Below, piece by piece: positions 3,643 through 48,582 of a DNA stretch of 53,888 bases. The first letter of the stretch is position 1. Each line of letters opens with the position of its first letter. The stretch comes from Opitutaceae bacterium (GTDB lineage Bacteria; Verrucomicrobiota; Verrucomicrobiia; Opitutales; Opitutaceae), in contig JANQKV010000023.1 in assembly GCA_028280945.1 (NCBI GenBank), positions 1 through 53,888 of the forward strand. Reading direction: 5' to 3'. The position numbers and the translations under genes were made by a program. The notes beneath the pieces were generated by a model, which saw nothing but the letters and a program-made list of their open reading frames with translations, ran no database searches and was not told where the DNA came from.

Positions 3643-4902
3643 ATGCCCGCCCCCGGCAATACGACTTCTCTTGAAGAGCACCCGGCTTGTGAAGATGCCC
3701 GGGTATACTTGGCCGGCCGCTCGACCGAGATGATCGAGACCCTGCGCACGTGGGCCGACCAGAACTCCGGATCCGACAACGTTGCCGGCATCGAACGGAT
3801 GGCGGAACTGGTAAAGGAACACGCGTTGTTCTTGCCCGGGAAATTTTCCCCGCTGACGGCTCCTGATTCCGACACCACCTGCGCCTTGCGTTGGGAGCAT
3901 ATGCCCCGGCCCGGCCTGCCCCGGGTGTTGCTGAATGGCCATTTGGATACCGTGTTTCCCGCGGATCATCCTTTTCAACGCTGCCACATCGATGACCATG
4001 GCCGCATCCATGGCCCGGGGGTGGCGGACATGAAAGGTGGACTGGTCATCCTGTTTGAGGCCCTGCGGGCCTTTCTTCGCAGCGGACTGCACGACCGCCT
4101 GGCCTGGGAAGTCTTGGTCACCTTTGACGAAGAAGTCGGGTCACCGACAAATTTCGATCATCTGAAAGCCGCCGCGCAACGCAACGATGTTGGCCTGGCT
4201 TTTGAATCCTCTCCGCACGTGGACGAGTTGATCCGCAACCGCATGGGCACGGGTGTCATCGACATCACCTGCCGGGGCAAGGCCGCGCATGCCGGCCGCA
4301 ACTTCGCCGACGGCCGCAATGCGATTCTGGCGCTCGGAAACTATCTTCAGCATATCAACAAACTGAATACATCGATTCCCGGAGGCATCGTCAACGTGGG
4401 CGCCATCACCGGGGGTGGGCCCGTCAACGTCGTTCCCGACTCCGCTTCCGCATCAGTCAACCTGCGCGCTATCGACCCCGCCACGCAGGATGAGATGATG
4501 CATGAACTCCGGGCCATCGCGTCCCGTATCTCCTCCGAAACCGAGTGCACCATCGATTTGAGCGGAGGCTTTACCCGCCCTCCCAAGGTAGCCGGCCCTG
4601 CCACGGAAAAACTGCTCAGGGCCGTGAAACGTGTCGGTCACACCCTCGATCTTGACATCAGCTGGCGCGATACGGGCGGCGCTTCCGACGGCAATATTCT
4701 CCAACATGCCGGCCTGCCGACGATTGATAATCTCGGTGCGGTTGGCACCCATCTCCACAGCGATGCCGAGTTTGCGGAATGCGCCCGGTTTGTCCCCCGT
4801 GCCCAACTCACGGCCTGTTTTCTCATCAATCTGGCGGCGGGACGTCTTGACGAAAACGGGATCGCTTTCGTCGACCAACTTGGAGATCCCCGCGCTTCGT
4901 GA
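3643..4902 (+). CDS. M20 family metallohydrolase, candidate N-succinylglutamate desuccinylase
   Basis: 419 residues from the ATG at 3643; a TTG 21 bases upstream is the alternative. Zinc ligands and catalytic residues of the M20/ArgE/DapE/CPG2 clan are visible: H100 and D102 in LNGHLDT, D129 in GVADMKGG, the glutamate pair 163-164 in FDEEVGS, and H372 in HLHSDAEF. Between them is the dimerisation domain of about 110 residues. It overlaps astA by four bases (GTGA) and opens an AST operon that has no AstE. Because M20 members remove succinyl (DapE) or acetyl (ArgE) groups or act next to glutamate (CPG2), hydrolysis of N-succinylglutamate to succinate and glutamate is the best guess. A dipeptidase acting on beta-Asp-Arg is the alternative. 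Family is certain; the substrate is inference. Confidence 0.85.
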   Translation: MPAPGNTTSLEEHPACEDARVYLAGRSTEMIETLRTWADQNSGSDNVAGIERMAELVKEHALFLPGKFSPLTAPDSDTTCALRWEHMPRPGLPRVLLNGHLDTVFPADHPFQRCHIDDHGRIHGPGVADMKGGLVILFEALRAFLRSGLHDRLAWEVLVTFDEEVGSPTNFDHLKAAAQRNDVGLAFESSPHVDELIRNRMGTGVIDITCRGKAAHAGRNFADGRNAILALGNYLQHINKLNTSIPGGIVNVGAITGGGPVNVVPDSASASVNLRAIDPATQDEMMHELRAIASRISSETECTIDLSGGFTRPPKVAGPATEKLLRAVKRVGHTLDLDISWRDTGGASDGNILQHAGLPTIDNLGAVGTHLHSDAEFAECARFVPRAQLTACFLINLAAGRLDENGIAFVDQLGDPRAS

Positions 4903-5954
4903 ATGCCTCGATCAGAAACTACGTTTTGCGGCCCGCCGCGCTTGCCGATCTTGACGCCATTGTGGCGCTGGTGGGCAGCCTGACCGATTCCCTTACGTCA
5001 CTTCCGCAGGAACCGGATTTCATTTTAAGGCGAATCCACAAGTCGATGCATTCCTTCTACCCGCACGTCGATGCTCCCGGCAGCGAACAGTATCTTTTTG
5101 TGCTGGATGGTCCCGATGGTGTGGTCGGCATCTCGGCCATCATCGCCCGCGTCGGTGGTTATCAGCCGTTCTACACCTTCGAGATCACGCACGAGGATTT
5201 CACGCATGGCCCCCTTGGCATCGCCAAAAAAATCCCGACCCTGAGCCTTAAACTCAACCACGACGGTCCCTCTGAAATTGGCAGTCTCTATCTGCACCCG
5301 AACCATCGGCGCGACGGCCTGGGACGACTGCTCTCGCTCGGCCGCTTTCTCTTCATGGCGCAGTTTCCGCACCGCTTTCGGGGCCAGACCCTCGCCGAGC
5401 TGCGGGGCTATCTCGACGAAAACGGCGACTCCCCGTTTTGGCAGCGAGTCGGCAAGCCGTTTTTCGAAACCGAATTCACCGACGCCGATTTTCTCAGCGG
5501 CCTGGGCAACAAGTCCTTCATTCGCGATCTCATGCCCCGGCATCCGTTTTACACCAATCTGCTGCCGCCTGATGTGCAGGAAGTGATCGGCCGGGTGCAT
5601 CATCAGACCGAGCCGGCCAAGGCACTCATCGAGGCCGAAGGTTTTTCGACCATCAACGAAGTCGATATCTTTGATGCCGGCCCCATCCTGCAGGCGGAAA
5701 CCCGATCCATCCGCACCATTGCCGCCCGCCGCAATTTCAGAATCGCGGGACTGGTCGACGAGGAGGCCCTACCGGGCACCCCGTGGCATGCCGCCAACCG
5801 AGCCCTGGAATTTCGAGCCTGCATCGCACGCGCAGAGGTCGAGGAGGGGAAGTGCCTCCTCTCCTCCCGCGCAGCCCAAACGCTCCAGCTGGGACTCGGC
5901 GACACCGTGCAACTCGCACCCGCGCGACCTCCCTCAGCTGTCACCTCGTCATGA
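4899..5954 (+). CDS. astA: Arginine N-succinyltransferase
   Basis: 351 residues, close to the 344 usual for AstA. It transfers succinyl from succinyl-CoA to the alpha-amino group of arginine, the first step of the AST pathway. Family signatures are clear: RPAALADLD at the start, then EIGSLYLHPNHRRDGLG and GRFLFMAQFPHRF of the acyltransferase core, and FFETEF further on. The start is GTG at 4899, overlapping the end of the M20 gene by four bases. It ends in an ATGA overlap with astD. Both junctions indicate translational coupling in one operon. No sign of damage. Confidence 0.95.
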   Translation: MNASIRNYVLRPAALADLDAIVALVGSLTDSLTSLPQEPDFILRRIHKSMHSFYPHVDAPGSEQYLFVLDGPDGVVGISAIIARVGGYQPFYTFEITHEDFTHGPLGIAKKIPTLSLKLNHDGPSEIGSLYLHPNHRRDGLGRLLSLGRFLFMAQFPHRFRGQTLAELRGYLDENGDSPFWQRVGKPFFETEFTDADFLSGLGNKSFIRDLMPRHPFYTNLLPPDVQEVIGRVHHQTEPAKALIEAEGFSTINEVDIFDAGPILQAETRSIRTIAARRNFRIAGLVDEEALPGTPWHAANRALEFRACIARAEVEEGKCLLSSRAAQTLQLGLGDTVQLAPARPPSAVTSS

Positions 5955-7408
5955 TTCAAACCGTCATCGGAAATGAGGCCCGGCCCGGCGAAAGCGATGC
6001 CGTTGTCTGCAACCGCAACCCGTCCACTGGCGAAATTGTCCCCGCGTGGCCGAGCGCCAGCGCTGCTCAAGTGGACGCGGCCGTGGCCGCCGCCCGCTCC
6101 GCTGCTTCGGCCTGGTCCACCCGCAGCCTGGCCGATCGCGAGTCCCTGCTGCGTCGCTATGCCGAGGTGGCCGCCGAGCAAGGCGAGGCGTTTGCCGCCG
6201 CCATTCAGGCCGAAGCCGGCAAACCCCTGTGGGAAGCGCGCCAGGAAGCCAAGGCCGTGGTCGGAAAGATTGAGCTCTCCATCAAAGCCTACGCGCAGCG
6301 TTGCGCCGAATTCGGCAGCGGACCGGGAAAAACCCGTTTTAAACCGCACGGCGTGTTGGGTGTGCTGGGTCCCTTCAACTTTCCCGCCCACCTGCCCAAC
6401 GGCCACATCGTGCCCGCTCTCCTGGCCGGCAATACTGTCGTCTTCAAACCCAGTGAACGTGTTCCCACTGCCGCCCAGATCATGATGGCATGCTGGCAGG
6501 AGGCGGGACTGCCCGCCGGCGTGCTGAATCTCGTGCAAGGTGGTCGCGATACCGGGGCGGCCCTGGCTCAACATGAAGGCATCGACGGACTGCTTTTCAC
6601 CGGAGGGTCGGCCCTCGGCGAAAAACTTCGGCGCGAGTTCGCCGCCAAACCGGCGAAAATGCTCGCCCTTGAATTGGGTGGAAACAACCCGCTGGTCGTG
6701 TGGGAGCCGGACAATCTCGACCTGGCGGTGAATTTAATCCTGCAGAGTGCTTACGTGACCGCCGGCCAGCGCTGCACCTGCGCCCGCCGCTTGATTGTGC
6801 CGGAGGGTCCGACAGGCGAGGCGCTTCTCGACGCCCTCGTGGCAGCCATCGACCAGCTGCGGGTGGGCTCCGCCCACGCCACTCCCGAGGTCTTCATGGG
6901 GCCGGTAATCGGAGCGGCCGCAGCCAAGACCCTGGTAGCCAAGCAACAGGAGCTGATCGACCGCGGCGCCAAGGCTCTCCGCCTGCTGCGGCATACCAAT
7001 CCGGATACCGGATTGGTGACCCCGGGACTGATGGATGCGACCGGGATCAACGATTTGGCCGACGAGGAAATGTTCGGTCCGCTGCTCACGGTCCGCCGTG
7101 TCGCCACCTTCGAAGATGCCATCGCCGAGGCAAATCGCACGGCCTACGGGCTGGCGGCCGGATTGGTTTCTCCCGATCACGCCCAATACGAGGTCTTCTC
7201 GCGGGAAGTCCGCAGCGGTATCATCAATTGGAATACCCAACTCACGGGCGCGTCCGGAGCCGCCCCGTTCGGCGGGCTCGGGCTGAGTGGAAACTTCCGG
7301 CCGAGCGGTTTTTTTGCCGCCGACTATTGTTCCTACGCCGTCGCCAGCCTGGAAGCCGGTGAACTTAACCCGGATGCACCGGTGCCGCCCGGATTGCGTC
7401 CGGATTGA
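5951..7408 (+). CDS. astD: N-succinylglutamate 5-semialdehyde dehydrogenase
   Basis: 485 residues from the ATG at 5951, which overlaps the astA stop as ATGA; the frame stays open further upstream but only over astA. It oxidises N-succinylglutamate semialdehyde to N-succinylglutamate with NAD, step four of the AST pathway. Aldehyde dehydrogenase features are complete: GPFNFPAHLPNGH, the cofactor motif FTGGS near residue 217, the general base E241 in ELGGNNP, and catalytic C275 in GQRCTCARR, which is the typical AstD form of the motif. It overlaps the next gene if that one starts at TTG 7405. Confidence 0.95.
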   Translation: MIQTVIGNEARPGESDAVVCNRNPSTGEIVPAWPSASAAQVDAAVAAARSAASAWSTRSLADRESLLRRYAEVAAEQGEAFAAAIQAEAGKPLWEARQEAKAVVGKIELSIKAYAQRCAEFGSGPGKTRFKPHGVLGVLGPFNFPAHLPNGHIVPALLAGNTVVFKPSERVPTAAQIMMACWQEAGLPAGVLNLVQGGRDTGAALAQHEGIDGLLFTGGSALGEKLRREFAAKPAKMLALELGGNNPLVVWEPDNLDLAVNLILQSAYVTAGQRCTCARRLIVPEGPTGEALLDALVAAIDQLRVGSAHATPEVFMGPVIGAAAAKTLVAKQQELIDRGAKALRLLRHTNPDTGLVTPGLMDATGINDLADEEMFGPLLTVRRVATFEDAIAEANRTAYGLAAGLVSPDHAQYEVFSREVRSGIINWNTQLTGASGAAPFGGLGLSGNFRPSGFFAADYCSYAVASLEAGELNPDAPVPPGLRPD

Positions 7409-7437
7409 GTCACATACTTCCCCCTGATCCCGCAGCC

Positions 7438-9024
7438 ATGTCTTCAAGTCCGCCATTGCCCAAGCCGTCGCAACACCTGCAGCGCTGGGAGATGCCGGAT
7501 GCCTACATCATCATCTTCATCGTCATCGCCTTGGCCGCGTTGACGACCTACCTGGTGCCGGCCGGTTACTTTTCCCTCAAGGAGGTGACCTACGAGGAAA
7601 ACGGTCAGGTCCACACGCGCTCGGTGATCGATCCGGCCACGTTTGAATACGCCCGGGACGCCGAAGGAAAGCCTGCGAAGGTCAACGTCAGTCTGTTTTC
7701 GGGCGAGGCCCACCAGGGGTCTACCCGCATCCATCGCTTCCCGTCCGACGCCAACTCAAACATCGGTTTTTTTAACTATGCGTTCGAGGGCATCACTTCC
7801 GGGAGCAAATACGGTGCAGCCGTCGGCGTGATGGCCTTCATTTTGGTCATTGGCGGCGCCTTTGGCATCATCTCCCGCACGGGGGCCATCGAGGTCGGCA
7901 TCCTCAACGTCATTCACCACACCCAGGGAAAGGACCTGTTGCTGATCCCGGCACTTTTTCTGATCTTCTCACTGGGCGGTGCCATATTCGGCATGGGCGA
8001 AGAGGCGATCGCTTTTGCCGTCATCGTCACCCCCCTCATGGTGCGCCTGGGCTACGACAACATCACGGCAGTCATGGTCACTTACGGGGCGACTCAGATC
8101 GGATTCGCCACGTCGTGGATGAATCCTTTCAGCATCAGCGTCGCGCAGGGTTTGGCGGAAATCCCGGTGCTTTCCGGAGCTCGTTTTCGCATCATCATGT
8201 GGGCGCTCTTCACGCTGGGTGTCATGGTTTATGTGATACGCTATGCCCGGGTGATCAAGCGGGATCCCTCCCGCTCACTCGCCTACAAATCTGATGATGG
8301 ATTTCGCGGGAGCTCCGCCGAGGCAACGGGATCGGCCGGGGAGGCATTTGGCTGGGGCCACGGCGTGGTGCTCGCCGTGGTCACCCTAGGCCTGGTTTGG
8401 ATCATCTACGGCGTGACGGTCTACCAGTATTACATACCGGAAATCGCCACGCAGTTCTTTATCATTGGAGTCGTGGCCGGCGTGACGGGGGTGGCCTTTA
8501 AACTCCGTCATATGCGGATCAACGACATCGCGATCGGCTTTCGCCGTGGCGCCAGTGACCTGCTTGGGGCGGCAATGATCGTGGGCATGGCGAAGGGCAT
8601 CGTGCTGATTCTCGGTGGCGACAACAGCACGGAGCCCAGCGTGCTCAACACCTTGCTGCACGAGGTGAGCCATTGGATCGAACCGCTGCCCGCCCAATTA
8701 TCCGCGGTCGGCATGCTGGTGTTTCAAAGCGGCCTCAACTTCTTCATTCCGTCCGGCTCGGGCCAAGCGGCCCTCACCGTGCCCCTGATGGCCCCGTTGG
8801 CCGATCTCGCCGGGCTCAATCGCCAGATCGCCGTGCTGGCCTTTCAGCTCGGCGACGGATTCACCAATTTGATCATCCCCACCAGTGCGTCCCTGATGGG
8901 CACGCTGGCGGTGGCGAGACTGGACTATGTCACGTGGTTCCGGTTCTTCTGGAAAATCCAGGTTGCGCTTTTCGTGACCGCCGCCGCCACGATGTTGCTG
9001 GCCGTTTCGATCGGCTACAGCTGA
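7438..9024 (+). CDS. YfcC family basic amino-acid or dipeptide permease
   Basis: 528 residues from the ATG at 7438; a TTG at 7405, overlapping astD by four bases, would add 11 residues. The protein has roughly twelve hydrophobic segments and a periplasmic-type loop after the first one. Motifs such as GGAFGII, GMGEEAIAFA, and FFIPSGSGQAALT near the end are those of the YfcC/DcuC-like family, whose members include arginine/ornithine exchangers and other amino-acid carriers. Its place as the last gene of the AST operon suggests it imports arginine or the dipeptide beta-Asp-Arg across the inner membrane. The exact substrate is not readable. Confidence 0.85.
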   Translation: MSSSPPLPKPSQHLQRWEMPDAYIIIFIVIALAALTTYLVPAGYFSLKEVTYEENGQVHTRSVIDPATFEYARDAEGKPAKVNVSLFSGEAHQGSTRIHRFPSDANSNIGFFNYAFEGITSGSKYGAAVGVMAFILVIGGAFGIISRTGAIEVGILNVIHHTQGKDLLLIPALFLIFSLGGAIFGMGEEAIAFAVIVTPLMVRLGYDNITAVMVTYGATQIGFATSWMNPFSISVAQGLAEIPVLSGARFRIIMWALFTLGVMVYVIRYARVIKRDPSRSLAYKSDDGFRGSSAEATGSAGEAFGWGHGVVLAVVTLGLVWIIYGVTVYQYYIPEIATQFFIIGVVAGVTGVAFKLRHMRINDIAIGFRRGASDLLGAAMIVGMAKGIVLILGGDNSTEPSVLNTLLHEVSHWIEPLPAQLSAVGMLVFQSGLNFFIPSGSGQAALTVPLMAPLADLAGLNRQIAVLAFQLGDGFTNLIIPTSASLMGTLAVARLDYVTWFRFFWKIQVALFVTAAATMLLAVSIGYS

Positions 9025-9029
9025 GGCCG

Positions 9030-10187
9030 CTACTTCAAACGCGACACCAATTGCGCCCGGCTTTTTAGGCCGAGCTTTTGGAAGATGGAATTCACCTGCG
9101 TCTTCACGGTAAGCACGCTTTTGTTCAGCTCGCCGGCGATCTCCGCGTTGCTGGCCCCCGTGCAGATGAACCGCACCACTTCCCGCTCCGCCGGGGTCAA
9201 TGCGGCCAAAGCCCGGGCCTTGCGGGCGGCCATCGCCTCGGGCGGCAGCGGTTCTTCCAGGCTGATCGGCTCCTTGAACAAAACAAAAAATCCCGGACGA
9301 GCCAGCGACGACTGGCCAAAGTGGGCGGGACTGATCGTCGCCCGCAGCCGCGAATCGAGCGGATGAGGAATCTCGAGCGGTTTGGGCATGCGACCCGAGA
9401 GCTCCCGGGGGTCGATGGCCTGAATCTCTGTTTTGAGCTGCCTCACTACTTGAAGCACCGGGCCGGGCACCCGGAAACACTCCCGGGGGTTGTAGCTGCG
9501 GGCCTTGCGCGCGCCAAAGTTCCAGATGGCGGCGCTTTCGTAAGCGGCAGGATTCGCGAAAAACAGCTTCATGGCCCAATCGAGCAGGAGCAGGGGTGCG
9601 GGCAACGTGCGGGTGAAGGCCTGCAGGGCATTGCGGAAGTTCTGATCCCGATGAATTTGCTGCACCCGTGTAACCGCCACCTCGATGTGCCGCCCAATTT
9701 CCAGAATCTGCTTCAGCTCCGCCGTCGAAAAATCCTCCACCTCCGGAGCGCGATACAACGAGAACATCGCCAACATTTCCTCCCCCCGCCAAAACATCAC
9801 GGAGAGCCCCTTGTCCCAGCCCTCGCGCTTGGCGAACTTCTGATAAAACGGAGTTCGGTGAAACTCCGCCGGCTCGCCCACCACGTCGCGAAAAAGGTAA
9901 TACGGCGCCCCAACGTGTGCCTCGATCCACCGGCTGAACGGGTTTAACTTGCCCCGTTCACTAAACCACCTCGTGGCCTCCGGAATCTCCGGTTCGGTGT
10001 AGACCATGCGGGCCTCACCCATGCCCAAGTGCCCGAGAAACAGGGTGATACGATCGAAGTGGCAGACATTCGCCAGGACTTCCCGCACGCCGTGCCAGAG
10101 GCTCTCCCGATCAATCGCAGAATGCAGCGCGAGAATCGGAGCACCGATTGCATCCCATGAGGGTTTGCCAAGGTCCGGTTTGGCCAT
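9030..10187 (-). CDS. LuxR-type transcriptional regulator with N-terminal sensor region
   Basis: 385 residues from the ATG at 10187; a TTG at 10223 is an alternative. The C-terminal 65 residues form a LuxR/GerE helix-turn-helix, with LTPAEREVVRFICTG, SNAEIAGELNKSVLTVKTQV and the conserved end LKSRAQLV. The N-terminal 200 residues look like a GAF-type sensor, followed by a possible PAS-like segment. There is no receiver domain, so it may bind a small molecule directly. It lies between the AST operon and a TonB receptor, divergent from the latter, and is the only regulator in the island. It is the natural candidate for controlling the polymer and arginine genes. The ligand could be arginine or a dipeptide; that is speculation. 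Confidence 0.85.
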   Translation of the reverse strand: MAKPDLGKPSWDAIGAPILALHSAIDRESLWHGVREVLANVCHFDRITLFLGHLGMGEARMVYTEPEIPEATRWFSERGKLNPFSRWIEAHVGAPYYLFRDVVGEPAEFHRTPFYQKFAKREGWDKGLSVMFWRGEEMLAMFSLYRAPEVEDFSTAELKQILEIGRHIEVAVTRVQQIHRDQNFRNALQAFTRTLPAPLLLLDWAMKLFFANPAAYESAAIWNFGARKARSYNPRECFRVPGPVLQVVRQLKTEIQAIDPRELSGRMPKPLEIPHPLDSRLRATISPAHFGQSSLARPGFFVLFKEPISLEEPLPPEAMAARKARALAALTPAEREVVRFICTGASNAEIAGELNKSVLTVKTQVNSIFQKLGLKSRAQLVSRLK

Positions 10188-10348
10188 CGCGCCAAAGGTG
10201 ATCTTTCCCGGGCAATTAGCCAACCCTTTTACTACCTTGGTTGTATGGGGGAATTGAGCCTTTCGTGGTAATTTTTAGACTCCTGTAGCTCGGACCCGGA
10301 TACGAAAGCCCCCACTCACCAAGCAAAAGAAAAGCAACCCACCAGGAA

Positions 10349-13300
10349 ATGATTCCCACTGAAACCTTCTCCCTTTCGCACCTTCGCCGGCCTAGCTGGT
10401 GCTGGGTGCTTGCGCTGTTGTTCAGCCTGACCGCCTTCGCCCAGGCCCAGACCGGCAGCGTGCGGGGCATCGTCACCGATCGCTCTGCCATCAACAACCT
10501 TGACGGTGCCACTGTTGTGCTCTCGGGCACCAGTTTTCGCGCAAGCACCAATCGCTCCGGTCGTTTCACCATCAACAACGTGCCCTCCGGCGAATACACC
10601 CTCGTGGTCAATCACATGGGCTACGTCCGCGATGAGCGCACCGTGCAGGTGGGCAACACTCCGCTCGACCTGGCCATCACCTTGGAGCCCGACGCCGATG
10701 TCGTGCGCATGGAGGCCTTTAACGTGCGGTCCAACCGGGCCGGCCTCGACCGCGCCGCGTCATTGCAACGCGCCGCCGCCAATCGGCTCGACGTCATCTC
10801 AGCCGACAACCTCGGACAGCTTCCCGACAGCACCATCGCGGACGCCATTCGCCGCCTGCCCGGCGTCAACGTCGAAAAGGACTCCCAGGGCCGCGAAGGG
10901 CGTTATGTCACCATTCGCGGCATGAACGCCGATTTCAATTCGGTGACCATCAACGGCCAAAAAGTCGTCGTTTCCAACTTCGATGGCGCCAGCCGCTCGG
11001 TGCCCATGGACGTGGTGTCCGCCGCCAGTGCCGGCACAATTGAAGTGACCAAATCCGTGCTGCCGAGCCAGGACGCCGACTCCATCGGTGGCGCGATCAA
11101 CATCAAATCCCGGTCCGCCTTCGATCAGGTCGGCATGGCCGCCGAAGCCGAATTTGCGGTCGGTTCGCAGAGCCTGGCCAACGATTATTCCGGCAGCTAT
11201 CCGCACGACGACATGCCCTATGAAGCATCCATCACCTGGGCCAACACGCTGGATGCCGACCGCACCCTGGGCCTCGCCCTGTCCGTGGATCACAGCAACC
11301 GTCCCTACCTGTTCCGGTCGATCGAAAGCGGTCCCTACGTGCTGGACCTCGGCGACTACTTCCCCACCTACGGCCGCCTTGAGGAAGCCTTCGACAATGT
11401 CGAATCCATCGGTGGCACCGCCCGCTTCGACTGGCGGCCCCATGACAACATCGAGTGGTCCGTCGACATCGCCTACTCGCAACGCGAAACCCAACAGGGC
11501 AGCCATCGCACGCAGGTGAACTTCGATCCGGGTTTTCTCGTCGGCGATCTCGAGATCACGGGCGACACCGCCACCAGGTTCACTTCAGAGGACCGCTCCC
11601 AGCGCGAAATCCGCGACTTCTTCGAGGAACAGGAAAACCTCACGCTCTCCACCGAGTTGCTCCAACGCATCGAAGAGTGGGAACTCACCTACGGCCTCGG
11701 CCTCAACCAGGGGGACTTCGCGGGCGACCCCGACCGCGACCTGCGCGCCTTCTTCCGCACCGGCTTCCGGGACGGCAACGGCGACTTTCTCGAAAACAGC
11801 TACGAGCTCCTCAACGGCGATGCCTACCAACCGCTCTACGGCGACAATCACGCCACCCTGCCCCCGTCTGATTTTGAAGTCTTCGAAGTCCGGCGCGGCA
11901 CGCGAATCATCGAGGACGAGACCTTCACCGGTTACATCAACGCCAAACGTGACCTGCTCTGGGGCGAGCTTCCGGGCTATCTGAAATTTGGTATCAAAAC
12001 AACGGATACGGACCGCGACTTTGATGACATTCGCCGCCGCTATCGCACCGCCGACACGCTGTGGACCCTGGATTCGGTTGTCATCAACGGCACCGAACAG
12101 GTCTACGGCAGCGTGCTCGCCGACTATGGCATCGACCGGGCCCTCAACGGCCAGGCGTTCGGTTCCATGATCGACCCGATCAAGGTCCGCGAGGCCGAGG
12201 AAGCGCTCGCCGCCGCCGGCTTGCGCGACGAAGGCGATGCCAATTGGTATCTCGACCAAAACACCGCCCGTGATGCCCGCGCCAACCTCGTGAACTCCTA
12301 CGACCTCAGTGAACGGGTCGACGCCGCCTATATCGAGGGCCAGGTGCAGACCCAGAAGCTCACCGTGATCGCCGGCGCCCGCATCGAGCTGACCGATGTG
12401 ACCGTGCGCACGCACGCCGGGGACTTCTTTGAAACCGACCCTGACGGTCCGCTTTTCGTGCGCCCCATCACGGGCAGCAACGACTACGACAACATCCTTC
12501 CGCACCTGCACCTGCGGTATGATGAAAATGAGGACCTGATCTTCCGCGCGTCGTTCAACCAGACCCTCGCCCGGCCGTCGTTCCGGCAGCTCAATCCCTC
12601 GACCGACATCGACCCGACCGCCAACGACGACGACGGCCTCGTGTTCAAGGGCCGCACCGATCTTGATCCCGTTGTATCGTCCAATTTCGACATTTCGGTC
12701 GATCGCTACTTCACCGGTTCCAACCGAATCTCCCTCGGCGCCTTCTACAAGGACATGTCGGACAACATCTACCGCCTGACCCGGCCGGTCCTGCCCGGCG
12801 ACCCGGCCAATTTTCCGCCCAATGCCGAAGTGCGTGAATTCCTCAACGCCGATGGCGCGCAGGTCTTCGGTCTGGAGTTCTCGTTTGAGCTCGGTTTCGA
12901 CGTGTTCACCGATGCGCTGACCGGTCTGAGCCTCACCGGCAACTACACCTACACCGACTCCGAGGTCGATGGCATCCAACGTTTGGATACCAACGGAGAC
13001 ATCGTGGAGGAGTTTGGCCGCACGCCGTTGTTTGGCCAGGTGCCCGATACCTACAACCTCGCCCTCAACTTCTCTCGCTGGGGCATCGACACCCGCCTCG
13101 CGTGGAATCGCACGAGTGACTATCTCGACTTTGGCGGGATCGATCTCGACATGAATCTCGACGATTACATCGCGGAACGTGACCGGGTCGATCTGAGCGT
13201 GAGCTATCGATTCCTGAACAACTGGACCGTCTTCGCCGAGATCAGCAACCTGCTCGACGACGATTCCCGGGCATTTGAGGGCGACGAGACGACCCGCATG

Positions 13301-13357
13301 TTTTACCGCGAAGAAGCCGGCCGATTCACCTGGGTCGGTGTTCGCTGGACTCTGTAG
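10349..13357 (+). CDS. TonB-dependent receptor with carboxypeptidase-regulatory-like N-domain
   Basis: 1002 residues. A signal peptide (cleavage after AFAQA) is followed by a CarboxypepD_reg-like beta-sandwich (about residues 35-115, starting GSVRGIVTD), a plug domain (about 145-260, with LPDSTIADAIRRLPGVNVE and GGAINIKSRSAF) and a barrel of about 700 residues ending in aromatic FTWVGVRWTL. It is an outer-membrane active transporter driven by TonB. It has its own transcription unit, divergent from the LuxR gene and ended by a strong terminator. Between the AST operon and the cyanophycinase operon its likely cargo is a cyanophycin fragment or arginine-containing peptide. The cargo is inferred from position only. 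The ATG follows an AGGA at three bases, too close for a normal ribosome site. Confidence 0.9.
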   Translation: MIPTETFSLSHLRRPSWCWVLALLFSLTAFAQAQTGSVRGIVTDRSAINNLDGATVVLSGTSFRASTNRSGRFTINNVPSGEYTLVVNHMGYVRDERTVQVGNTPLDLAITLEPDADVVRMEAFNVRSNRAGLDRAASLQRAAANRLDVISADNLGQLPDSTIADAIRRLPGVNVEKDSQGREGRYVTIRGMNADFNSVTINGQKVVVSNFDGASRSVPMDVVSAASAGTIEVTKSVLPSQDADSIGGAINIKSRSAFDQVGMAAEAEFAVGSQSLANDYSGSYPHDDMPYEASITWANTLDADRTLGLALSVDHSNRPYLFRSIESGPYVLDLGDYFPTYGRLEEAFDNVESIGGTARFDWRPHDNIEWSVDIAYSQRETQQGSHRTQVNFDPGFLVGDLEITGDTATRFTSEDRSQREIRDFFEEQENLTLSTELLQRIEEWELTYGLGLNQGDFAGDPDRDLRAFFRTGFRDGNGDFLENSYELLNGDAYQPLYGDNHATLPPSDFEVFEVRRGTRIIEDETFTGYINAKRDLLWGELPGYLKFGIKTTDTDRDFDDIRRRYRTADTLWTLDSVVINGTEQVYGSVLADYGIDRALNGQAFGSMIDPIKVREAEEALAAAGLRDEGDANWYLDQNTARDARANLVNSYDLSERVDAAYIEGQVQTQKLTVIAGARIELTDVTVRTHAGDFFETDPDGPLFVRPITGSNDYDNILPHLHLRYDENEDLIFRASFNQTLARPSFRQLNPSTDIDPTANDDDGLVFKGRTDLDPVVSSNFDISVDRYFTGSNRISLGAFYKDMSDNIYRLTRPVLPGDPANFPPNAEVREFLNADGAQVFGLEFSFELGFDVFTDALTGLSLTGNYTYTDSEVDGIQRLDTNGDIVEEFGRTPLFGQVPDTYNLALNFSRWGIDTRLAWNRTSDYLDFGGIDLDMNLDDYIAERDRVDLSVSYRFLNNWTVFAEISNLLDDDSRAFEGDETTRMFYREEAGRFTWVGVRWTL

Positions 13358-13383
13358 CCACAGATTGAGGTTTGGACAACCGG

Positions 13384-13413
13384 GACCGGGCCGTTCGGCC
13401 CGGTCTTTTTTTT
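13384..13413 (+). terminator. Intrinsic terminator after the TonB receptor
   Basis: A perfect 9-base-pair GC-rich stem (13384-13392 with 13397-13405) around a GTTC loop is followed directly by eight T residues (13406-13413). It lies 27 bases after the receptor stop codon and also separates it from the convergent isoaspartyl peptidase gene. Confidence 0.95.
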
Positions 13414-13444
13414 GGCCGGATTCCTCAGAAACTGCCGGCTGCTT

Positions 13445-14425
13445 TCAGTCGTCGCCAAAGATGGCAACGCCTTCGGTCTTATCGCGACTCGTGCGCCAGG
13501 CGCGATACATGCCATCGGTATTAAACGGCAGGCTCACCCGGCCGGTGCGGTCCACCGCAATCAATCCACCGCTGCCACGGAGTTTCGGCAATTTTTGCCA
13601 TACTACATGACGGGTCGCCCTTTCCAAGGTCTCGCCGAGGTATTCCATGCGCGCGGCCACATCGTGGGCGACCACAGCGCGCATAAATTCTTCGCCGTAT
13701 CCAGTGCAGGATACCGCGCAAGTGCGGTTATCCGCATAGGTTCCAGCACCAATCAATGGCGTGTCCCCGATGCGGCCAAATTTTTTGTTGGTAAGACCGC
13801 CGGTGGAAGTCGCCGCGGCCACATCACCGTGCTCATCCAAGGCAACGACGCCGATGGTGCCATACTTGGTGGATACCTTGCCATCGTGGTCCATCACCAT
13901 GCCGTCGTTGGCTTGGGCGGCCCGCAGCTGGGCGAAACGTTCCGGGGTGCCAAACCAATCGGCGGCCACGCGCTCAACCGCAACGCTTTCCGCAAAGGCC
14001 TCCGCACCTGGCCCAGCCAGAAAAACGTAGCGCTCATCCGCCAACACGGCCCGGGCCAACGAAATGGGATTTTTAACGGACTTCACGCCCGCCACGGCCC
14101 CCGCCTTGCGTTCACGGCCTTCCATGATCGCGGCATCCAATTCATGGCCGCCATCACTGGTGAACACCGCGCCCAGCCCGGCATTAAAAAGCGGACAATC
14201 CTCCAGCACTTTCGCTCCCGCTTCGACGGCATCGAGGGCCGCGCCGCCGGCCGCCAGCAGGGACCAGGCCGCATCACGTGCCTCGGCCAGCGCCTGTCGA
14301 TAGGATTGCTCCAACTCTGCGCTCAACATCTCCCGGCAGATGGTGCCGGAACCTCCGTGCAGGGCGACCGCGATGGGCGGGACGTCGGTTGAGGAAGCGG
14401 GATCTGTCATAGAAGCGTGCATCAT
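13445..14425 (-). CDS. iaaA: Isoaspartyl peptidase / L-asparaginase (plant type, Ntn hydrolase)
   Basis: 326 residues from the ATG at 14425; a nearby ATG at 14410 is equally possible. The family is N-terminal-nucleophile hydrolase T2. It is made as one chain and cuts itself before a threonine, here in KYGTIGVVALD (T190 with this start), producing alpha and beta subunits. The opening ALHGGSG, NAGLGAVFTSDG, and TSTGGLTNKKFGRIGD with GAGTYAD are all family hallmarks. No signal peptide, so it acts in the cytosol. IaaA enzymes are known to split beta-Asp-Arg from cyanophycin into aspartate and arginine. Being divergent from a cyanophycinase supports that role here. Asparaginase activity is the usual side function. 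Confidence 0.92.
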   Translation of the reverse strand: MMHASMTDPASSTDVPPIAVALHGGSGTICREMLSAELEQSYRQALAEARDAAWSLLAAGGAALDAVEAGAKVLEDCPLFNAGLGAVFTSDGGHELDAAIMEGRERKAGAVAGVKSVKNPISLARAVLADERYVFLAGPGAEAFAESVAVERVAADWFGTPERFAQLRAAQANDGMVMDHDGKVSTKYGTIGVVALDEHGDVAAATSTGGLTNKKFGRIGDTPLIGAGTYADNRTCAVSCTGYGEEFMRAVVAHDVAARMEYLGETLERATRHVVWQKLPKLRGSGGLIAVDRTGRVSLPFNTDGMYRAWRTSRDKTEGVAIFGDD

Positions 14426-14517
14426 AGCAGCCAATGCCGATTACTGCATACCACTTTAGCTGTATATGCCCGGAGAGACGCTAGCCAGCTAAGAGGGCTG
14501 TGGTAGGATGCCCTCCC

Positions 14518-15504
14518 ATGCCTTTTCGGTTCATCCCCCCTCTCCTGCCCACTCTCATTGCCATCGGCTCCCTCACCGCGTCGGATGCACCGCAACGTTG
14601 GCAGGTCGGCAACCCCGCCGATGTGGCCCCTTCCTCCCCGACCTCGGGAGGACTCATGTTGATGGGCGGTGGGGGCGACGTGGACACCGCATTCCAGTGG
14701 TTCCTGCAACAGGCAGGCGGCGGTGATGTGGTTGTCCTGCGCAGCAGCGGCAGCGATGGCTACAACCCTTACTTGATGCGGGAGCTCGGCATCGAAGTGG
14801 ACTCGGTTGAAACGATATTGCTGACCTCGCGCGAGCAATCCTTTGATGCAGACTTGGCTGCCACCTTGGCGGGGGCCGAAGCTATATTTCTGGCCGGGGG
14901 CGATCAGTCAAACTACGTCCGGTTTTGGCAACACACTCCCGTCGAAAACGCGCTCAACGCCCACGTTGCCGCGGGCAAACCCCTTGGTGGAACCAGCGCC
15001 GGTCTGGCCGTGATGGGGCGCCATGTTTATGCGGCCATGCATGACGGGGACCTCACTTCGAAACTGGCGATCAAATCCCCCGACCATCGCTACATTACCC
15101 TGATCGACGATTTCCTGCACCTGCCCTTCCTTCAGCAAGTTCTCACCGACTCCCACTTCAGCGAACGTGCCCGGCTCGGGCGGCTGATGGTCATGGTGCA
15201 CCGCATCGCCCAAGCTCAAAACGGCCAGCCTCCGCTCGGTCTGGGGCTCGACGAGCGCACCGCCCTTTGCGTGGAGGCCAGTGGCGTTGCCCGGGTCCTG
15301 ACGGCCGATCGCGGTCAGGTTCACCTGGTGTCCCTCGCCGAGTTCAACCCAGCGACTCCCGAGGGGGCGGTGGCCGCCGTCATCTCGCTTGGTTCCGACA
15401 GCACGTTCGATCTGGCCTCGCTCAATATCGAAAACCCCGACGCGGAAAAAATCGTGCGCATCACCCGAGGCAAACTCGAAGCCCTCGAACCCATCCAGCC
15501 ATGA
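14518..15504 (+). CDS. Secreted cyanophycinase (peptidase S51), short form
   Basis: 328 residues from the ATG at 14518, chosen because it starts a signal peptide of about 22 residues; an earlier start at 14500 would put polar residues before it. S51 serine peptidases cut the Asp backbone of cyanophycin to give beta-Asp-Arg. The nucleophile elbow GGTSAG puts the catalytic serine at residue 160. The paired TDSHFSERARLGRL segment carries the histidine at 213, and it resembles the extracellular CphE type. It begins the second operon of the island and ends in an ATGA overlap with the aminotransferase, so polymer cutting and arginine breakdown are co-expressed. Confidence 0.9.
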   Translation: MPFRFIPPLLPTLIAIGSLTASDAPQRWQVGNPADVAPSSPTSGGLMLMGGGGDVDTAFQWFLQQAGGGDVVVLRSSGSDGYNPYLMRELGIEVDSVETILLTSREQSFDADLAATLAGAEAIFLAGGDQSNYVRFWQHTPVENALNAHVAAGKPLGGTSAGLAVMGRHVYAAMHDGDLTSKLAIKSPDHRYITLIDDFLHLPFLQQVLTDSHFSERARLGRLMVMVHRIAQAQNGQPPLGLGLDERTALCVEASGVARVLTADRGQVHLVSLAEFNPATPEGAVAAVISLGSDSTFDLASLNIENPDAEKIVRITRGKLEALEPIQP

Positions 15505-16919
15505 GTTCCCCTCCTGCCCTTCCGCTCGGCGAACAGCTTCAGGCTGATCCCGAATTCAACGCCGCCCTCGATCAAGCAGCGACCATCGTCCGCAGTTATG
15601 CCAATCGCATCGACGGCATCCGCCCGCCCCTGGCCGGCCGCACCATCGACTATCAGAGGGCCGTGGATGAATTCGGCCAAATCCGCGGCGGCAGATTGTT
15701 CTTTCCCTTCATCGGCTCGGGATTGGGTCGAGGTCCATTTGTGGAGCTCGGCGACGGCAGCGTGAAACTCGATTTCATCAACGGCATCGGGGCGCTCCCG
15801 TTCGGACATTCGCATCCCGAGATCACGGCTGCCGCCCTCCGAGCCGCCGCGACCAACGCGGTCATGCACGGCAACCTGCAGCAAAACGCAGCCGGGGTGG
15901 AATTCTCGCGCAAGCTGCTCGCCATGGCCAACGCCCGGCATCCCGTTTTCGATCATTGTTTTATCAGTTCGACCGGAGTCATGGCGGGCGAAAACATGCT
16001 GAAGATCGCCTTCCAGGCACGTCAGCCCGCTCACCGAGTTCTCGCGTTTGAGGGATGTTTCGCCGGGCGCACGTTGGCCTTTTCCCAAATTACCGACAAA
16101 GCCGCATTTCGCGTCGGACTGCCGCAGACGCTGGAAGTGGACTACGTGCCATTTTTCGACGCCGAAGATCCTGCCGGTTCCACGGAACGGGCGGTTGTGG
16201 TGCTGCGGCGCCACCTGACCCGCTATCCCCAACAGCATGCCGCGTTCATCTATGAGCTTGTGCAGGGTGAAGGCGGTTTCTATCCGGGCACCAAGGCGTT
16301 CTTCACCACGCTGATGACGATTTGCCGTGAACATGGTGTGCTGAATCTGGGTGATGAAGTCCAAACGTTTGCCCGCACGCCCCAGCCTTTCGCGTTTCAA
16401 TACTTCGAACTCGAAGACCTGATCGACGGTCTCTGGATCGGAAAATCGAGCCAGGCCTGCGCCACGCTCTTTAAGTCAGCCCACCAACCCAAACCAGGAT
16501 TGCTGAGCCAAACCTTTACGGCCAGCGCGGTGGCGCTGGCAGCGGGTGAACGCATCCTGGATCTGCTGCAGGACGGCGGCTACTTCGGCACCGATGGCAT
16601 CATTGCCCGACGCGCCGCCGAGTTTCACCGCGGGTTGCAAGCCATTCACGAAAAGCACCCAAGTTGGCTGCGCGGGCCTTATGGCGTCGGCGCGATGACC
16701 GCCTTCACGCCATTCGCGGGGCAGCCTGCCCAAGCCCAGGCCGTCGTGCGCGCCTTGTATGACCACGGAGTGATGACGTTTGTGGCCGGAGCCGATCCCA
16801 TGCGGGTGCGTTTTCTGTGGCCGGTGGGTGTCACCGAATCCTCGCATATCGAACTCGCCCTGGGCATCTTGGAAAACGTTTTGAGCTCGCTGGCCCCAGA
16901 ACACACCAAATCCGCATGA
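15501..16919 (+). CDS. Class III aminotransferase, candidate succinylornithine transaminase
   Basis: 472 residues from the ATG at 15501 (ATGA overlap with the cyanophycinase); the open frame upstream is a shadow. It is a fold-type I, PLP-dependent class III enzyme: GIGALPFGHSHPEI near the start, SSTGVMAGENML, then GDEVQTFARTPQ and the predicted PLP-binding lysine K315 in WIGKSSQAC. It lies between a cyanophycinase gene and astB with overlaps on both sides, and the pathway otherwise lacks AstC, so conversion of N-succinylornithine to the semialdehyde with 2-oxoglutarate is the expected job. It is longer than AstC (about 406) and its lysine context differs from the standard AstC/ArgD form, so it appears to be a separate branch recruited to the pathway. 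Confidence 0.85.
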   Translation: MSSPPALPLGEQLQADPEFNAALDQAATIVRSYANRIDGIRPPLAGRTIDYQRAVDEFGQIRGGRLFFPFIGSGLGRGPFVELGDGSVKLDFINGIGALPFGHSHPEITAAALRAAATNAVMHGNLQQNAAGVEFSRKLLAMANARHPVFDHCFISSTGVMAGENMLKIAFQARQPAHRVLAFEGCFAGRTLAFSQITDKAAFRVGLPQTLEVDYVPFFDAEDPAGSTERAVVVLRRHLTRYPQQHAAFIYELVQGEGGFYPGTKAFFTTLMTICREHGVLNLGDEVQTFARTPQPFAFQYFELEDLIDGLWIGKSSQACATLFKSAHQPKPGLLSQTFTASAVALAAGERILDLLQDGGYFGTDGIIARRAAEFHRGLQAIHEKHPSWLRGPYGVGAMTAFTPFAGQPAQAQAVVRALYDHGVMTFVAGADPMRVRFLWPVGVTESSHIELALGILENVLSSLAPEHTKSA

Positions 16920-18256
16920 GCTACCGCGAAATCAACTTCGATGGCATCGTGGGGCCGACCCACAACTTCTCCGGTCTTTCGGAGGGTAACATCGCTTCCA
17001 TGGCTTCGCGGGCAAACGTTTCCCGCCCCCGGGAGGCTGCATTGCAAGGCCTGCAGAAAATGAAGGCGCTCGCCGACTGGGGCATTCCCCAGGCCGTGTT
17101 GCCACCCTTGGAGCGTCCGGCGATCAGCTGGCTGCGCCGCTTCGGCGTGGGAGGAAACCATGATGCCGCCGTGCTGGCTCGTGCTGCAGCGGAAGCGCCC
17201 CAGTTGCTGGCGGCCTGCTGCTCGGCGTCCGCCATGTGGACGGCCAATGCGGCCACCATGACACCCTCCTGCGACACCGCGGACGACAAGGCCCACTTCA
17301 CTCCCGCCAATCTCAGCAGCAAACTCCACCGAGCCATTGAGGCATCCGAAACGCACCAGGTTCTCGCCACGATTTTTGCTGATTCCGACCACTTCATGGT
17401 GCACCCACCTCTCGCTGGAGGTGAAGCCATGCGGGACGAAGGCGCGGCCAACCATACCCGGCTTTGCGCCGACTTCGGCAGCACCGGAATCCACGTTTTC
17501 GTTTACGGAGCATCGGTCTTCGACCGGAGCCTGCCACAACCCTCGCGTTTCCCGGCTCGCCAAACCCGGGAGGCCAGCGAAACCGTCGCCCGGCTTCACC
17601 GGATTCCGGACGAGCGCACGATCTATGTGCAGCAAAACCCGGCCGCCATTGATGCCGGCGTCTTCCACAACGATGTCATCGCGGTCGGACATCAAAACGT
17701 GCTGCTCTACCACGAGCTTGCCTTCGTGGAGGGCGATGCCGCGGTGCAACGTATCGCCGAAGCCTGTGACCATCCGCTGGTGCCAGTACGAGTCAGCGAA
17801 GCCGATGTGCCCCTAACCGATGCCGTCAAAAGCTATCTTTTCAACAGCCAGATTGTGACACGTCCCGACGGAAAACTCACAGTCATCGCCCCTCAGGAAA
17901 GCGCCGATACACCCGCTACCCGCGCGCTGCTGGAGCAGACCGTCGACGCATCCGACAACCCCATCACGGAGGTGAAATTCTTTGATCTGCGCCAGAGCAT
18001 GCGAAATGGCGGTGGCCCCGCTTGCCTCCGGCAGCGCGTGACGCTCAACGAACAGGAGATCGCCGCCATGCACGGCCGGGTCATGCTCACCGATGACTTG
18101 TTCGATGAACTCGAGGCCTGGGTCAAAGGGCACTATCGCGAGGAGATCGTCTTCGCCGATCTCTCCGATCCGACATTGTTGAGCGAGAGCCGCACCGCCT
18201 TGGACCAACTGACCCAGATCCTCCAACTCGGATCCCTTTATCCCTTCCAACGATGA
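16916..18256 (+). CDS. astB: N-succinylarginine dihydrolase
   Basis: 446 residues, matching the roughly 447 of E. coli AstB. It converts N-succinylarginine to N-succinylornithine, releasing two ammonia and CO2. Its start MSYREINFDGIVGPTHNFSG is characteristic. The catalytic triad of the amidinotransferase-like fold is visible as E175, H251 in VFHNDV and nucleophile C370 in GGGPACLRQRV. It overlaps both neighbours by four bases. This gene and astA make the AST assignment secure; no other pathway uses both. Confidence 0.97.
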   Translation: MSYREINFDGIVGPTHNFSGLSEGNIASMASRANVSRPREAALQGLQKMKALADWGIPQAVLPPLERPAISWLRRFGVGGNHDAAVLARAAAEAPQLLAACCSASAMWTANAATMTPSCDTADDKAHFTPANLSSKLHRAIEASETHQVLATIFADSDHFMVHPPLAGGEAMRDEGAANHTRLCADFGSTGIHVFVYGASVFDRSLPQPSRFPARQTREASETVARLHRIPDERTIYVQQNPAAIDAGVFHNDVIAVGHQNVLLYHELAFVEGDAAVQRIAEACDHPLVPVRVSEADVPLTDAVKSYLFNSQIVTRPDGKLTVIAPQESADTPATRALLEQTVDASDNPITEVKFFDLRQSMRNGGGPACLRQRVTLNEQEIAAMHGRVMLTDDLFDELEAWVKGHYREEIVFADLSDPTLLSESRTALDQLTQILQLGSLYPFQR

Positions 18257-19497
18257 TGCGCCTGGGCACCGTTCTCGTATGCCTGGCAGCGTGGGGTGGC
18301 AGTCTCGGGTGGGCCTCCCCCCGCGGAAGCCTGGTCATGGTCGGCGGCGGCCTGCGGGCCAGTAACGCTGCCATTTACCAAGAGTTCATCGCGCGAACCG
18401 GCGAGACGGGATCCATTGGCATCATCCCGCTGGCCAGCGGTAAACCGGTCGAATCGGGCCACAAGTTTCGCGACAACCTGATCCGCTACGGCGTGCCTGC
18501 CGAACGGATACACCTCCTGCCGCTGGCCTATCGCGATGACTCCACTACCTCCGACGTAGACGAAAGCACTTGGCGCCGGAACGCCCGGAACCCGAAACTG
18601 GCGGAAAGACTGGCCGACTTCACCGGTCTCTGGTTCACCGGGGGCGACCAAAACCGCATCACCAGCACCCTGCGGACCGAATCGGGCGAAGAAACCGTGG
18701 TCCTGAGAGCGATTCGCCAGCTTTACGCCCGAGGCGGCGTGATTGGTGGCACCAGTGCGGGGGCCGCGATGCAAAGCGAGGTCATGATTCTTGGCGGCAC
18801 CAGTCCGTTCGCGCTGACCGAGCCGCCGAGGCAGGACTACCCTGACATGGAATCGCAGGAAAACGGGCCGCTGGTGATCGGCGATGGGCTGGGATTCTTC
18901 CCCCACGGCATCATCGACCAACACTTTGAACGCAAAGCCCGGCTGGGCCGCCTCATTGCCGCACTGCTCGGCAACCCGGCTGGCGACCGAATCGGCTTTG
19001 GTATCGATGAAGATACGGCGTTGGTTTACGACGCATCGACCGGCAAAACCAACGTGATCGGTGCCAGCAATGTTGTGCTGGTGGATGCACGCGACTCCAA
19101 GACCACTCCGGAGGCTACCACCGGCATTCGGCTCAGTCTTTTTGGCAACGGCGATCGACTCGAGCTGCCAGCCTTAACCTCAACGATTCACTCCGGTCGC
19201 ACCCTCATCAGAGAACCTTACCTCGACGTGCCCACCACCAACGTCTCCAGCCTGCTCACTCCCTACGGCGGCCGGCTCGAGGATGCCCTCGGCTTTCTTC
19301 TCGTCGACAACGCCGCAACACAGCATTTCACGACACGGGTGGCCACTCCGGCGGGCGCGACGGCGGAACTGCGATTTGAAACCGACACTCGCAGCGAAGG
19401 TTTTTGGGGATACGTCGACGGTCAGCGCGACAGCTACAGCGTGCGACAAATCCTGGTCTCCTGCCGCCCGGGGCTGGATTTCCTGAACGCGGAATAG
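18253..19497 (+). CDS. Secreted cyanophycinase (peptidase S51), long form
   Basis: 414 residues with a signal peptide (cleavage near residue 21, after GWA). It is a second S51 peptidase, only distantly similar to the one at 14518: the elbow GGTSAGAA puts the serine at residue 168, and IDQHFERKARLGRL carries H224. It has about 110 extra C-terminal residues that look like a beta-rich domain of unknown role. The start overlaps the astB stop (ATGATGA), so it is in the same operon. Two different secreted forms may split endo and exo cutting, or act on soluble and insoluble polymer; that is a guess. The hem genes start 63 bases later and could be read through. Confidence 0.88.
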   Translation: MMRLGTVLVCLAAWGGSLGWASPRGSLVMVGGGLRASNAAIYQEFIARTGETGSIGIIPLASGKPVESGHKFRDNLIRYGVPAERIHLLPLAYRDDSTTSDVDESTWRRNARNPKLAERLADFTGLWFTGGDQNRITSTLRTESGEETVVLRAIRQLYARGGVIGGTSAGAAMQSEVMILGGTSPFALTEPPRQDYPDMESQENGPLVIGDGLGFFPHGIIDQHFERKARLGRLIAALLGNPAGDRIGFGIDEDTALVYDASTGKTNVIGASNVVLVDARDSKTTPEATTGIRLSLFGNGDRLELPALTSTIHSGRTLIREPYLDVPTTNVSSLLTPYGGRLEDALGFLLVDNAATQHFTTRVATPAGATAELRFETDTRSEGFWGYVDGQRDSYSVRQILVSCRPGLDFLNAE

Positions 19498-20514
<1,017 letters not shown>

Positions 20515-20626
20515 TTAAGGCTTCCCAATTACGATTAACGCATGCCGGTCAGCTCTCGATCCCAGGAATCCACTTTGCTTGGCGACTCATTGTCCTGCGT
20601 AATTCGCCATTCGTAAACTCATCCCG

Positions 20627-21655: not shown

Positions 21656-21677
21656 CCTGTCTTCCTTATCTGTCCGC

Positions 21678-25663: not shown

Positions 25664-25717
25664 GGAAAAGTTCCCACCGTTGAGTATCGAGAATGGCAAT
25701 ACGCCGGTTCCGCCAAG

Positions 25718-25749
25718 AAAAACCCCCGCCGGTGCACCGGCGGGGGTTT
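25718..25749 (-). terminator. Intrinsic terminator after the large TonB receptor
   Basis: A perfect 30-base palindrome (arms 25720-25732 and 25737-25749, loop TGCA) ends, read on the minus strand, in TTTTT at 25722-25718. It lies 103 bases past the receptor stop and before the lacI-type gene. On the plus strand it is followed by only TTTG, so it should work mainly on minus-strand transcripts. Confidence 0.9.
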
Positions 25750-25851
25750 GAATTCCTTTTGACCAACCCAAGGGCCGGACGGGATTCCGTGGCGGGTCTG
25801 GCTTGCCCCCCGGCAAGACCTGCCCTGTCACACGGAACCGTTGCCGAAAGA

Positions 25852-46318: not shown

Positions 46319-46325
46319 ACTAGTA

Positions 46326-48542: not shown

Positions 48543-48582
48543 GGATGGCTCAAAGTTGGCAAGTTCGATGGGTTTGTTTGAC

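Follow-up and report, generated by a model that had tools for sequence, protein, structure and literature searches.

A predicted cyanophycin-scavenging island coupled to arginine catabolism in an Opitutaceae bacterium

Many cyanobacteria store nitrogen as cyanophycin. The stretch of DNA analyzed here (the window, 53,888 nt) is one 53.9-kb contig (JANQKV010000023.1) of the Opitutaceae bacterium assembly GCA_028280945.1, a 5.4-Mb genome in 75 contigs that is 96% complete. Between positions 3643 and 19497 it holds an island of genes that, judged from sequence, probably allows this Opitutales-type bacterium to scavenge cyanophycin and couples this to arginine catabolism by the arginine succinyltransferase (AST) pathway. 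The island consists of two plus-strand runs, M20-astA-astD-yfcC (3643-9024) and S51a-aminotransferase-astB-S51b (14500-19497), which are separated by a LuxR-type regulator gene (minus strand), a TonB-dependent receptor gene (plus strand), a terminator, and iaaA (minus strand). Four-base overlaps join the genes of the first run (4899-4902, 5951-5954, and 7405-7408; the one at 4899 presupposes a GTG start of astA, and the one at 7405 a TTG start of yfcC) and those of the second (15501-15504, 16916-16919, and 18253-18256), where they intermix S51 genes for cutting the polymer with genes for arginine breakdown. An earlier note on this DNA had described these genes as lying together, with four-base overlaps mixing both functions in one operon; gene order, coordinates, and strands were borne out, and six overlaps were located.

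The first run begins with a gene for an M20 metallohydrolase of the PRK07338 family (3643-4902, plus strand; NF005602, 391 bits versus a cut-off of 357), a predicted stand-in for AstE. It is followed on the same strand by astA, coding for arginine N-succinyltransferase (4899-5954; PF04958, 356 bits), whose product passes the AstA/AOST subfamily cut-off (TIGR03243, 321.6 versus 284.35) and does not reach that of the narrower AstA equivalog (310.9 versus 391); by astD, coding for succinylglutamate-semialdehyde dehydrogenase (5951-7408; equivalog TIGR03240, 615.3 versus 579.3); and by yfcC (7405-9024), a permease gene of the DcuC Pfam family whose product passes the YfcC equivalog cut-off (NF008611, 685.7 versus 500 bits) and is a predicted importer of beta-aspartyl-arginine (beta-Asp-Arg) or of arginine. 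The product of the LuxR-type gene (9030-10223, minus strand) carries a GerE domain at its C-terminus (PF00196, 47.3 bits) and no recognised sensor domain, and its position makes it a candidate for regulating the genes of the island together. The TonB-dependent receptor gene (10349-13357, plus strand; TIGR01782, 443 versus 310) encodes an N-terminal carboxypeptidase-regulatory-like domain, and its product is the predicted outer-membrane port. In the gap between it and iaaA lies a strong intrinsic terminator (13382-13407, plus strand), formed by an 11-pair stem with eight G-C pairs and a T run. iaaA (13445-14434, minus strand) codes for a plant-type isoaspartyl peptidase/L-asparaginase (PF01112, 356 bits), predicted to be the cytosolic beta-Asp-Arg hydrolase. 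IaaA scores 312 bits against PDB chain 2zak (listed as L-asparaginase precursor), has its Thr nucleophile junction, G-T-(I/V)-G (G-T-hydrophobic-G), aligned in 2zak and 9hnc, and lies below the narrower PRK10226 equivalog cut-off (350.8 versus 567). The receptor, permease and isoaspartyl peptidase that the earlier note had read here are thus supported by their family matches. iaaA is divergent from S51a, with 65 bp between them, and 3.8 kb from S51b. A promoter scan of the region returned one site versus 4.3 in shuffled sequences.

The second run, also on the plus strand, comprises S51a (14500-15504, likely start ATG 14518), the class-III aminotransferase gene AT3 (15501-16919; PF00202, 155 bits), predicted to serve the AstC (succinylornithine) step, astB, coding for N-succinylarginine dihydrolase (16916-18256; equivalog TIGR03241, 624.1 versus 538.3), and S51b (18253-19497). 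S51b scores over the cyanophycinase cut-off of TIGR02069 (178.2 versus 126.6 bits), matches the CphB structure 3en0 (E 4e-22), retains the motifs GGDQ, GGTSAGAA, and DQHF-R, residues common to CphB chains, and falls in an eight-member clade (97/90). It is a long protein that continues at its C-terminus for about 110 residues past the CphB match, and the label "CphE-like" was set by this length and its N-terminus, not by comparison with any CphE sequence. S51a, in contrast, stays under the same cut-off (98.5 versus 126.6 bits) and belongs to a separate, divergent S51 clade. Both proteins match CphB chains by sequence, S51a by predicted fold as well, and the solved structure closest to S51a is 7uqv, titled "pseudo-CphB". 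The Ser nucleophile (GxSAG), GGDQ, and the D-x-H-F..R.R..R motif are kept in outline in both, with Ser instead of Gln after Asp in S51a and Lys instead of the first Arg in S51b; the roles of these residues are in part assumed here, and S132 is named in the title of structure 7uqw. The role of S51a in cutting cyanophycin is therefore uncertain, and the earlier claim of two secreted S51 cyanophycinases stands for S51b as regards the family and is not supported for S51a. Nor was secretion confirmed for either, since it was judged from N-termini that look hydrophobic by eye and from a crude hydropathy count of poor discrimination, in which AstA, surely a cytosolic protein, scores as high as the S51 proteins. 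Both may be exported, and a gene of 1260 bp with a leader peptide, which is the size of S51b, has been described for an extracellular cyanophycinase (PMC3235067).

To place the island among its relatives, 54 other S51 loci were compared: three from the genomes G158 and G289, 28 of the 29 loci found by scanning genomes with an alignment of S51b (one being a duplicate), seven further loci of the phylum, nine opened out of 29 plasmid records matching S51b, and seven from a search of the Halioglobus family, in which eight of 46 genomes, Halioglobus included, had a match. A YfcC-type permease was found in 11 of the 41 loci lacking cphA, the cyanophycin synthetase gene, and in none of the 13 that have it (p = 0.048). 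This value is indicative only, since several loci are closely related (four from Acidobacteriota, three from Pseudoalteromonas, and seven from Hymenobacter) and several of the stretches are only 3-6 kb long. For Pseudoalteromonas, moreover, two records were picked once the cluster had been seen in another; if they are left out, the count of loci with YfcC falls to nine of 39 lacking cphA. Four of the 11 permeases exceed the NF008611 cut-off (L029, L030, L031, and L133), three from Acidobacteriota (L043, L045, and L049) have NF008611 as their sole family match at 355-367 bits, under the cut-off, the one of L044 was counted without a family scan, and the three of Pseudoalteromonas are yfcC by record name. 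All 11 loci also hold IadA (10) or IaaA (one), and AST genes occur in just one. On the three Pseudoalteromonas plasmids the annotated order is TonB receptor-YfcC-IadA, opposite a cyanophycinase. IadA and IaaA are cytosolic enzymes, and since they adjoin YfcC, the substrate that this permease most simply carries is beta-Asp-Arg. YfcC is consequently our prime candidate for the inner-membrane importer of this dipeptide, with import of arginine as the rival role; no solved structural relative of YfcC was found by sequence. Other S51 arrangements were seen among the compared loci. Each of three from the Halioglobus family (L134, L135, and L136) encodes, next to cphA, a large S51 protein (704-745 aa) containing two S51-like stretches; IadA lies near these genes in L134 and L136 and was not found in L135. 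A plasmid of the haloarchaeon Natronosalvus (L113) holds two cyanophycinase genes, an agmatinase-family gene, an ABC transporter, and a glutamate dehydrogenase gene in one stretch.

The earlier note had found no cyanophycin synthetase in the window, and the same held when the search was extended to the host genome (96% complete): the profile TIGR02068 gave 11 matches, none over the cut-off, and the best of them is an open reading frame (ORF) read by eye as MurE, adjoining a MurF-like ORF. The host might nevertheless descend from one that made cyanophycin, lost cphA, and kept the genes for mobilising its store, given that genomes having both cphA1 and a cyanophycinase gene usually have them clustered (PMC10206079). 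We regard such a storage remnant as barely credible. None of the other seven members of the S51b clade comes from the 13 loci bearing cphA, an internal store needs no TonB receptor, and the genomes of the same genus, G091 and G271, contain neither a cyanophycinase over the cut-off nor AstB; the S51 clade together with the genome search for cphA led us to set this explanation aside.

The whole kit was found once more, within about 17 kb of a single contig (L030 and L059) of the gammaproteobacterial metagenome-assembled genome (MAG) HF-Din24. One strand carries genes for aspartase (AspA), AstB, AstD, AstA, and M20, and the divergent strand those for a class-III aminotransferase (nearest PRK07482), a TonB receptor, YfcC, IadA, S51b, and S51a. 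Compared with the window, HF-Din24 has IadA instead of IaaA and another aminotransferase, plus an aspartase for the aspartate half of the dipeptide. That one and the same step is served by non-homologous enzymes in the two clusters is the best indication that the cluster is held together by the steps and not by chance. Misbinning of this one contig could alter its taxonomic label, not its gene order. An apparent lack of the catalytic His in the S51a of HF-Din24 was discarded as a finding, for it depends on the alignment (lost in one, kept in another). Parts of the kit occur elsewhere: in a Parvularcula MAG, YfcC-S51b-IaaA and AstA-AstD-AstB lie on two separate contigs, Pseudoalteromonas sp. 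THAF3 has an arginase-family gene close to that for cyanophycinase, and Natronosalvus has one of the agmatinase family there. These last two cases, few as they are, suggest that the module for arginine is exchangeable (AST, or arginase/agmatinase).

Within the order, two genomes from another family (G158 and G119) carry M20-AstA-AstD as one block with no cyanophycinase genes there, and elsewhere a divergent IaaA/AstB pair, adjacent in G158 and with one ORF between in G119, an arrangement that equals the layout of the window without the S51 genes, AT3, and YfcC. S51a and S51b of G158 lie on other contigs, and G119 gave no S51 match in the cyanophycinase search of phylum genomes. Among 10 AstB sequences, that of the window groups with those of three members of the order, G158, G119, and G366 (96/94). 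Most simply, a locus of the order for arginine and isoaspartyl peptides would have gained genes for cyanophycinase, the aminotransferase, and the permease. That G158 and G119 have the AST and IaaA/AstB blocks separate from cyanophycinases, and that AstB groups with members of the order, would also suit two separate functions, namely the arginine operons of the order in which cyanophycin genes landed by chance, so that they share transcripts, cyanophycin is a minor source of arginine, and YfcC imports arginine. The NCBIfam label of YfcC, putative basic amino acid antiporter, points the same way, and so would ArcE of the basic amino acid antiporter family TC 2.A.118, a proven Arg/Orn exchanger (PMC5300872), should YfcC belong to that family. 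We nevertheless hold two unconnected functions to be unlikely, because the S51 genes are joined to astB within its operon by four-base overlaps, YfcC recurs with S51 and IadA/IaaA in loci of which only one has AST genes, and HF-Din24 repeats the union of AST and cyanophycin genes. The single-system reading is thus supported by the recurrence of the kit in a MAG of another phylum, the retention of the IaaA/AstB and M20-AstA-AstD blocks in G158 and G119, and the absence of cphA over the cut-off.

The earlier note had assigned genes to all five AST steps. This stands for AstA, AstB, and AstD, which are firm. The two other steps are assigned by neighbourhood to predicted stand-ins, since AT3 is not of the AstC family and M20 is not of the AstE family; the AstE profiles TIGR03242 and PF04952 match nothing in the host genome. 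Relatives of AT3 at E <= 1e-60 were found in two of 374 genomes, those of the host and G366 (48% identity), a plasmid search returned 833 records, all under 60% identity, with the best rows at 26-32% and thus of no informative value, and the predicted structure (mean predicted local distance difference test score of 50) was too poor to use. M20 was followed in a sample of 387 genomes of the phylum, in which AstB was matched in eight (seven over the cut-off) and the PRK07338 cut-off was passed in 24: six of the eight AstB genomes and 18 of the 379 lacking AstB. Leaving out the genome of the window, the M20 gene occurs in five of seven AstB genomes versus 18 of 379 (p = 9e-6, uncorrected for kinship). 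It lies inside the AST run in five of the eight (the window, G257, G366, G119, and G158) and on a different contig from AstB in G330; G086 and G235 have no copy over the cut-off. The M20 of the HF-Din24 cluster scores 515 bits. The nearest solved relatives of the window's M20 are carboxypeptidase G2, which releases glutamate from an N-acylated form, and the succinyl-diaminopimelate desuccinylases (DapE), and its chemistry would therefore fit the desuccinylase step.

Several observations weigh against the proposed coupling. The 18 genomes that have a PRK07338-type M20 and lack AstB include two of the host's genus, so that the enzyme should have another role there, and no AST gene was found near M20 in the four such genomes that were fetched (G091, G271, G099, and G018). 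M20 as the replacement of AstE is thus plausible, not as its exclusive role. AT3 scores far below the cut-off of the AstC profile TIGR03246 (83.7 versus 609.95 bits), and the sole orthologue found among the 374 genomes, in G366, sits away from the AST genes, for which reason AT3 was dropped as an AST-specific marker. The TonB receptor of the window shows no full-length similarity to those of the gammaproteobacterial clusters (28% over 75 residues), which are themselves interrelated (34-42% among HF-Din24, Halioglobus, and Pseudoalteromonas), and a common family of cyanophycin receptors was accordingly rejected. AST genes accompany S51 in only one of the 54 other loci, that of HF-Din24, a MAG. 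Finally, a cyanophycinase over the cut-off occurs in seven of the 387 phylum genomes, two of them AstB genomes, and this co-occurrence was given up as support, the p value without the window's genome being 0.10.

A different substrate can also be envisaged: the island might serve to degrade the isoaspartyl peptides that damaged proteins yield, or beta-aspartyl material of another kind, its S51 proteins being peptidases of another specificity. IaaA and IadA of cyanophycin clusters are promiscuous (PMC10206079), S51a is under the cyanophycinase cut-off, and M20 matches, further down than its nearest relatives, a poly(aspartic acid) hydrolase (7ljh, 1.4e-11). S51b, on the other hand, passes that cut-off and keeps the motif residues common to CphB chains, and the same operon includes catabolism specific to arginine, which makes a substrate other than cyanophycin quite improbable.

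In the scavenging system that we propose, exported S51b would cut the polymer of other organisms into beta-Asp-Arg dipeptides, assisted in some way by S51a. The dipeptides, or short oligomers, would enter by way of the TonB receptor in the outer membrane and then of YfcC in the inner one, and cytosolic IaaA would split the dipeptides into aspartate and arginine. AstA, AstB, the aminotransferase, AstD, and M20 in place of AstE would then convert arginine to glutamate, succinate, and ammonia. The earlier claim of one scavenging system thus gained from the comparison with HF-Din24, G158 and G119, and from the missing cphA, and lost the parts in which both S51 proteins are cyanophycinases and five AST enzymes are assigned by orthology. 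The island is best read as a real and coherent gene set that recurs partly in many places and wholly once, and as a predicted, not a demonstrated, system. A bolder reading, possible and still somewhat doubtful, would make it one version of a modular system crossing phyla, with a core serving uptake (a CphE-like S51, YfcC, IadA or IaaA, and, in some diderms, a TonB receptor) and an exchangeable arginine module (AST with M20 as desuccinylase, or arginase/agmatinase); YfcC would import beta-Asp-Arg, the S51a clade would be a new enzyme or binding partner acting together with CphE, and the PRK07338-type M20 would be a second, unrelated AstE.

Upstream of the island (2703-3434, minus strand) lies a gene for a membrane-like protein of 243 aa that seems by eye to have a His-rich loop and matches neither Pfam nor NCBIfam. 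Downstream, hemF, hemE, and a protoporphyrinogen oxidase gene (19525-23048, plus strand) start 27 bp past its end. Farther on, a LacI-type regulator gene adjoins one for a protein of 1282 aa in which a TonB-receptor plug is the sole domain recognised (24509-29700, minus strand), and a type I restriction-modification operon coding for HsdM, HsdS, and HsdR (42593-51586, minus strand) has genes for a PtuA-like ATPase and a PtuB-like HNH protein (Septu) inserted between those of HsdS and HsdR; GC is lower over most of this stretch. A tRNA-Ser (TGA) gene at the contig end, past these defence genes (53623-53712, plus strand), is a possible integration site; a tRNA was the sole Rfam match at gathering cut-offs.

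The island ties the scavenging of a polymer to the fate of its arginine, and it offers concrete, cheaply testable candidates: YfcC as importer, M20 as replacement of a missing AST enzyme, and S51a as an uncharacterised S51 partner. The scavenging idea itself is already established. A cyanophycin niche for heterotrophs has been suggested in a cyanobacterial consortium (PMC8880816), and nutrient scavenging with a cyanophycinase homologue in Pseudoalteromonas tunicata (PMC2536512). In the literature searched, which covers few subscription journals, we found no link between YfcC and cyanophycin, no operon uniting cyanophycinase and AST genes, and no M20 acting as AstE, nor did S51a appear there, which is weak evidence of novelty; no named importer of cyanophycin dipeptides was found either, in a coverage that does not extend to the locus with a transporter reported by Ben Hania et al. 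(2017).

Compared with the AST pathway, the island is alike in that AstA/AOST, AstB, and AstD cut-offs are passed, and differs in having no member of the AstE and AstC families, for which M20 and a class-III aminotransferase of another subfamily would stand in. Compared with CphB and CphE (S51; 3en0 and 7uqw), S51b shares the family and both S51 proteins match CphB chains, whereas the C-terminal extension of S51b and the divergent clade of S51a set them apart. In Citromicrobium sp. JLT1363 a TonB receptor gene adjoins a cyanophycinase gene and TonB-dependent uptake of cyanophycin has been proposed (PMC3400609); uptake of cyanophycin products is predicted likewise for the window, and the coupling to AST belongs to the window, no such coupling being described in the available part of that paper. 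The closest parallel is what Ben Hania et al. (2017) termed the "cyanophycin utilization locus", cited in Sharon and Schmeing (2023; PMC10206079). According to the available text of the latter, of 52 genomes that lack cphA1 and have genes for both a cyanophycinase and an isoaspartyl dipeptidase, 45 have the two clustered, often with amino acid transporters whose kind is not named there, and scavenging is proposed for them. The island likewise holds a cyanophycinase over the cut-off, IaaA within 5 kb of it, and transporters of predicted substrate, with no cphA1 over the cut-off, and it adds AST genes in the same operons, a TonB receptor, YfcC, a second, divergent S51 protein, and a host in the Verrucomicrobiota.

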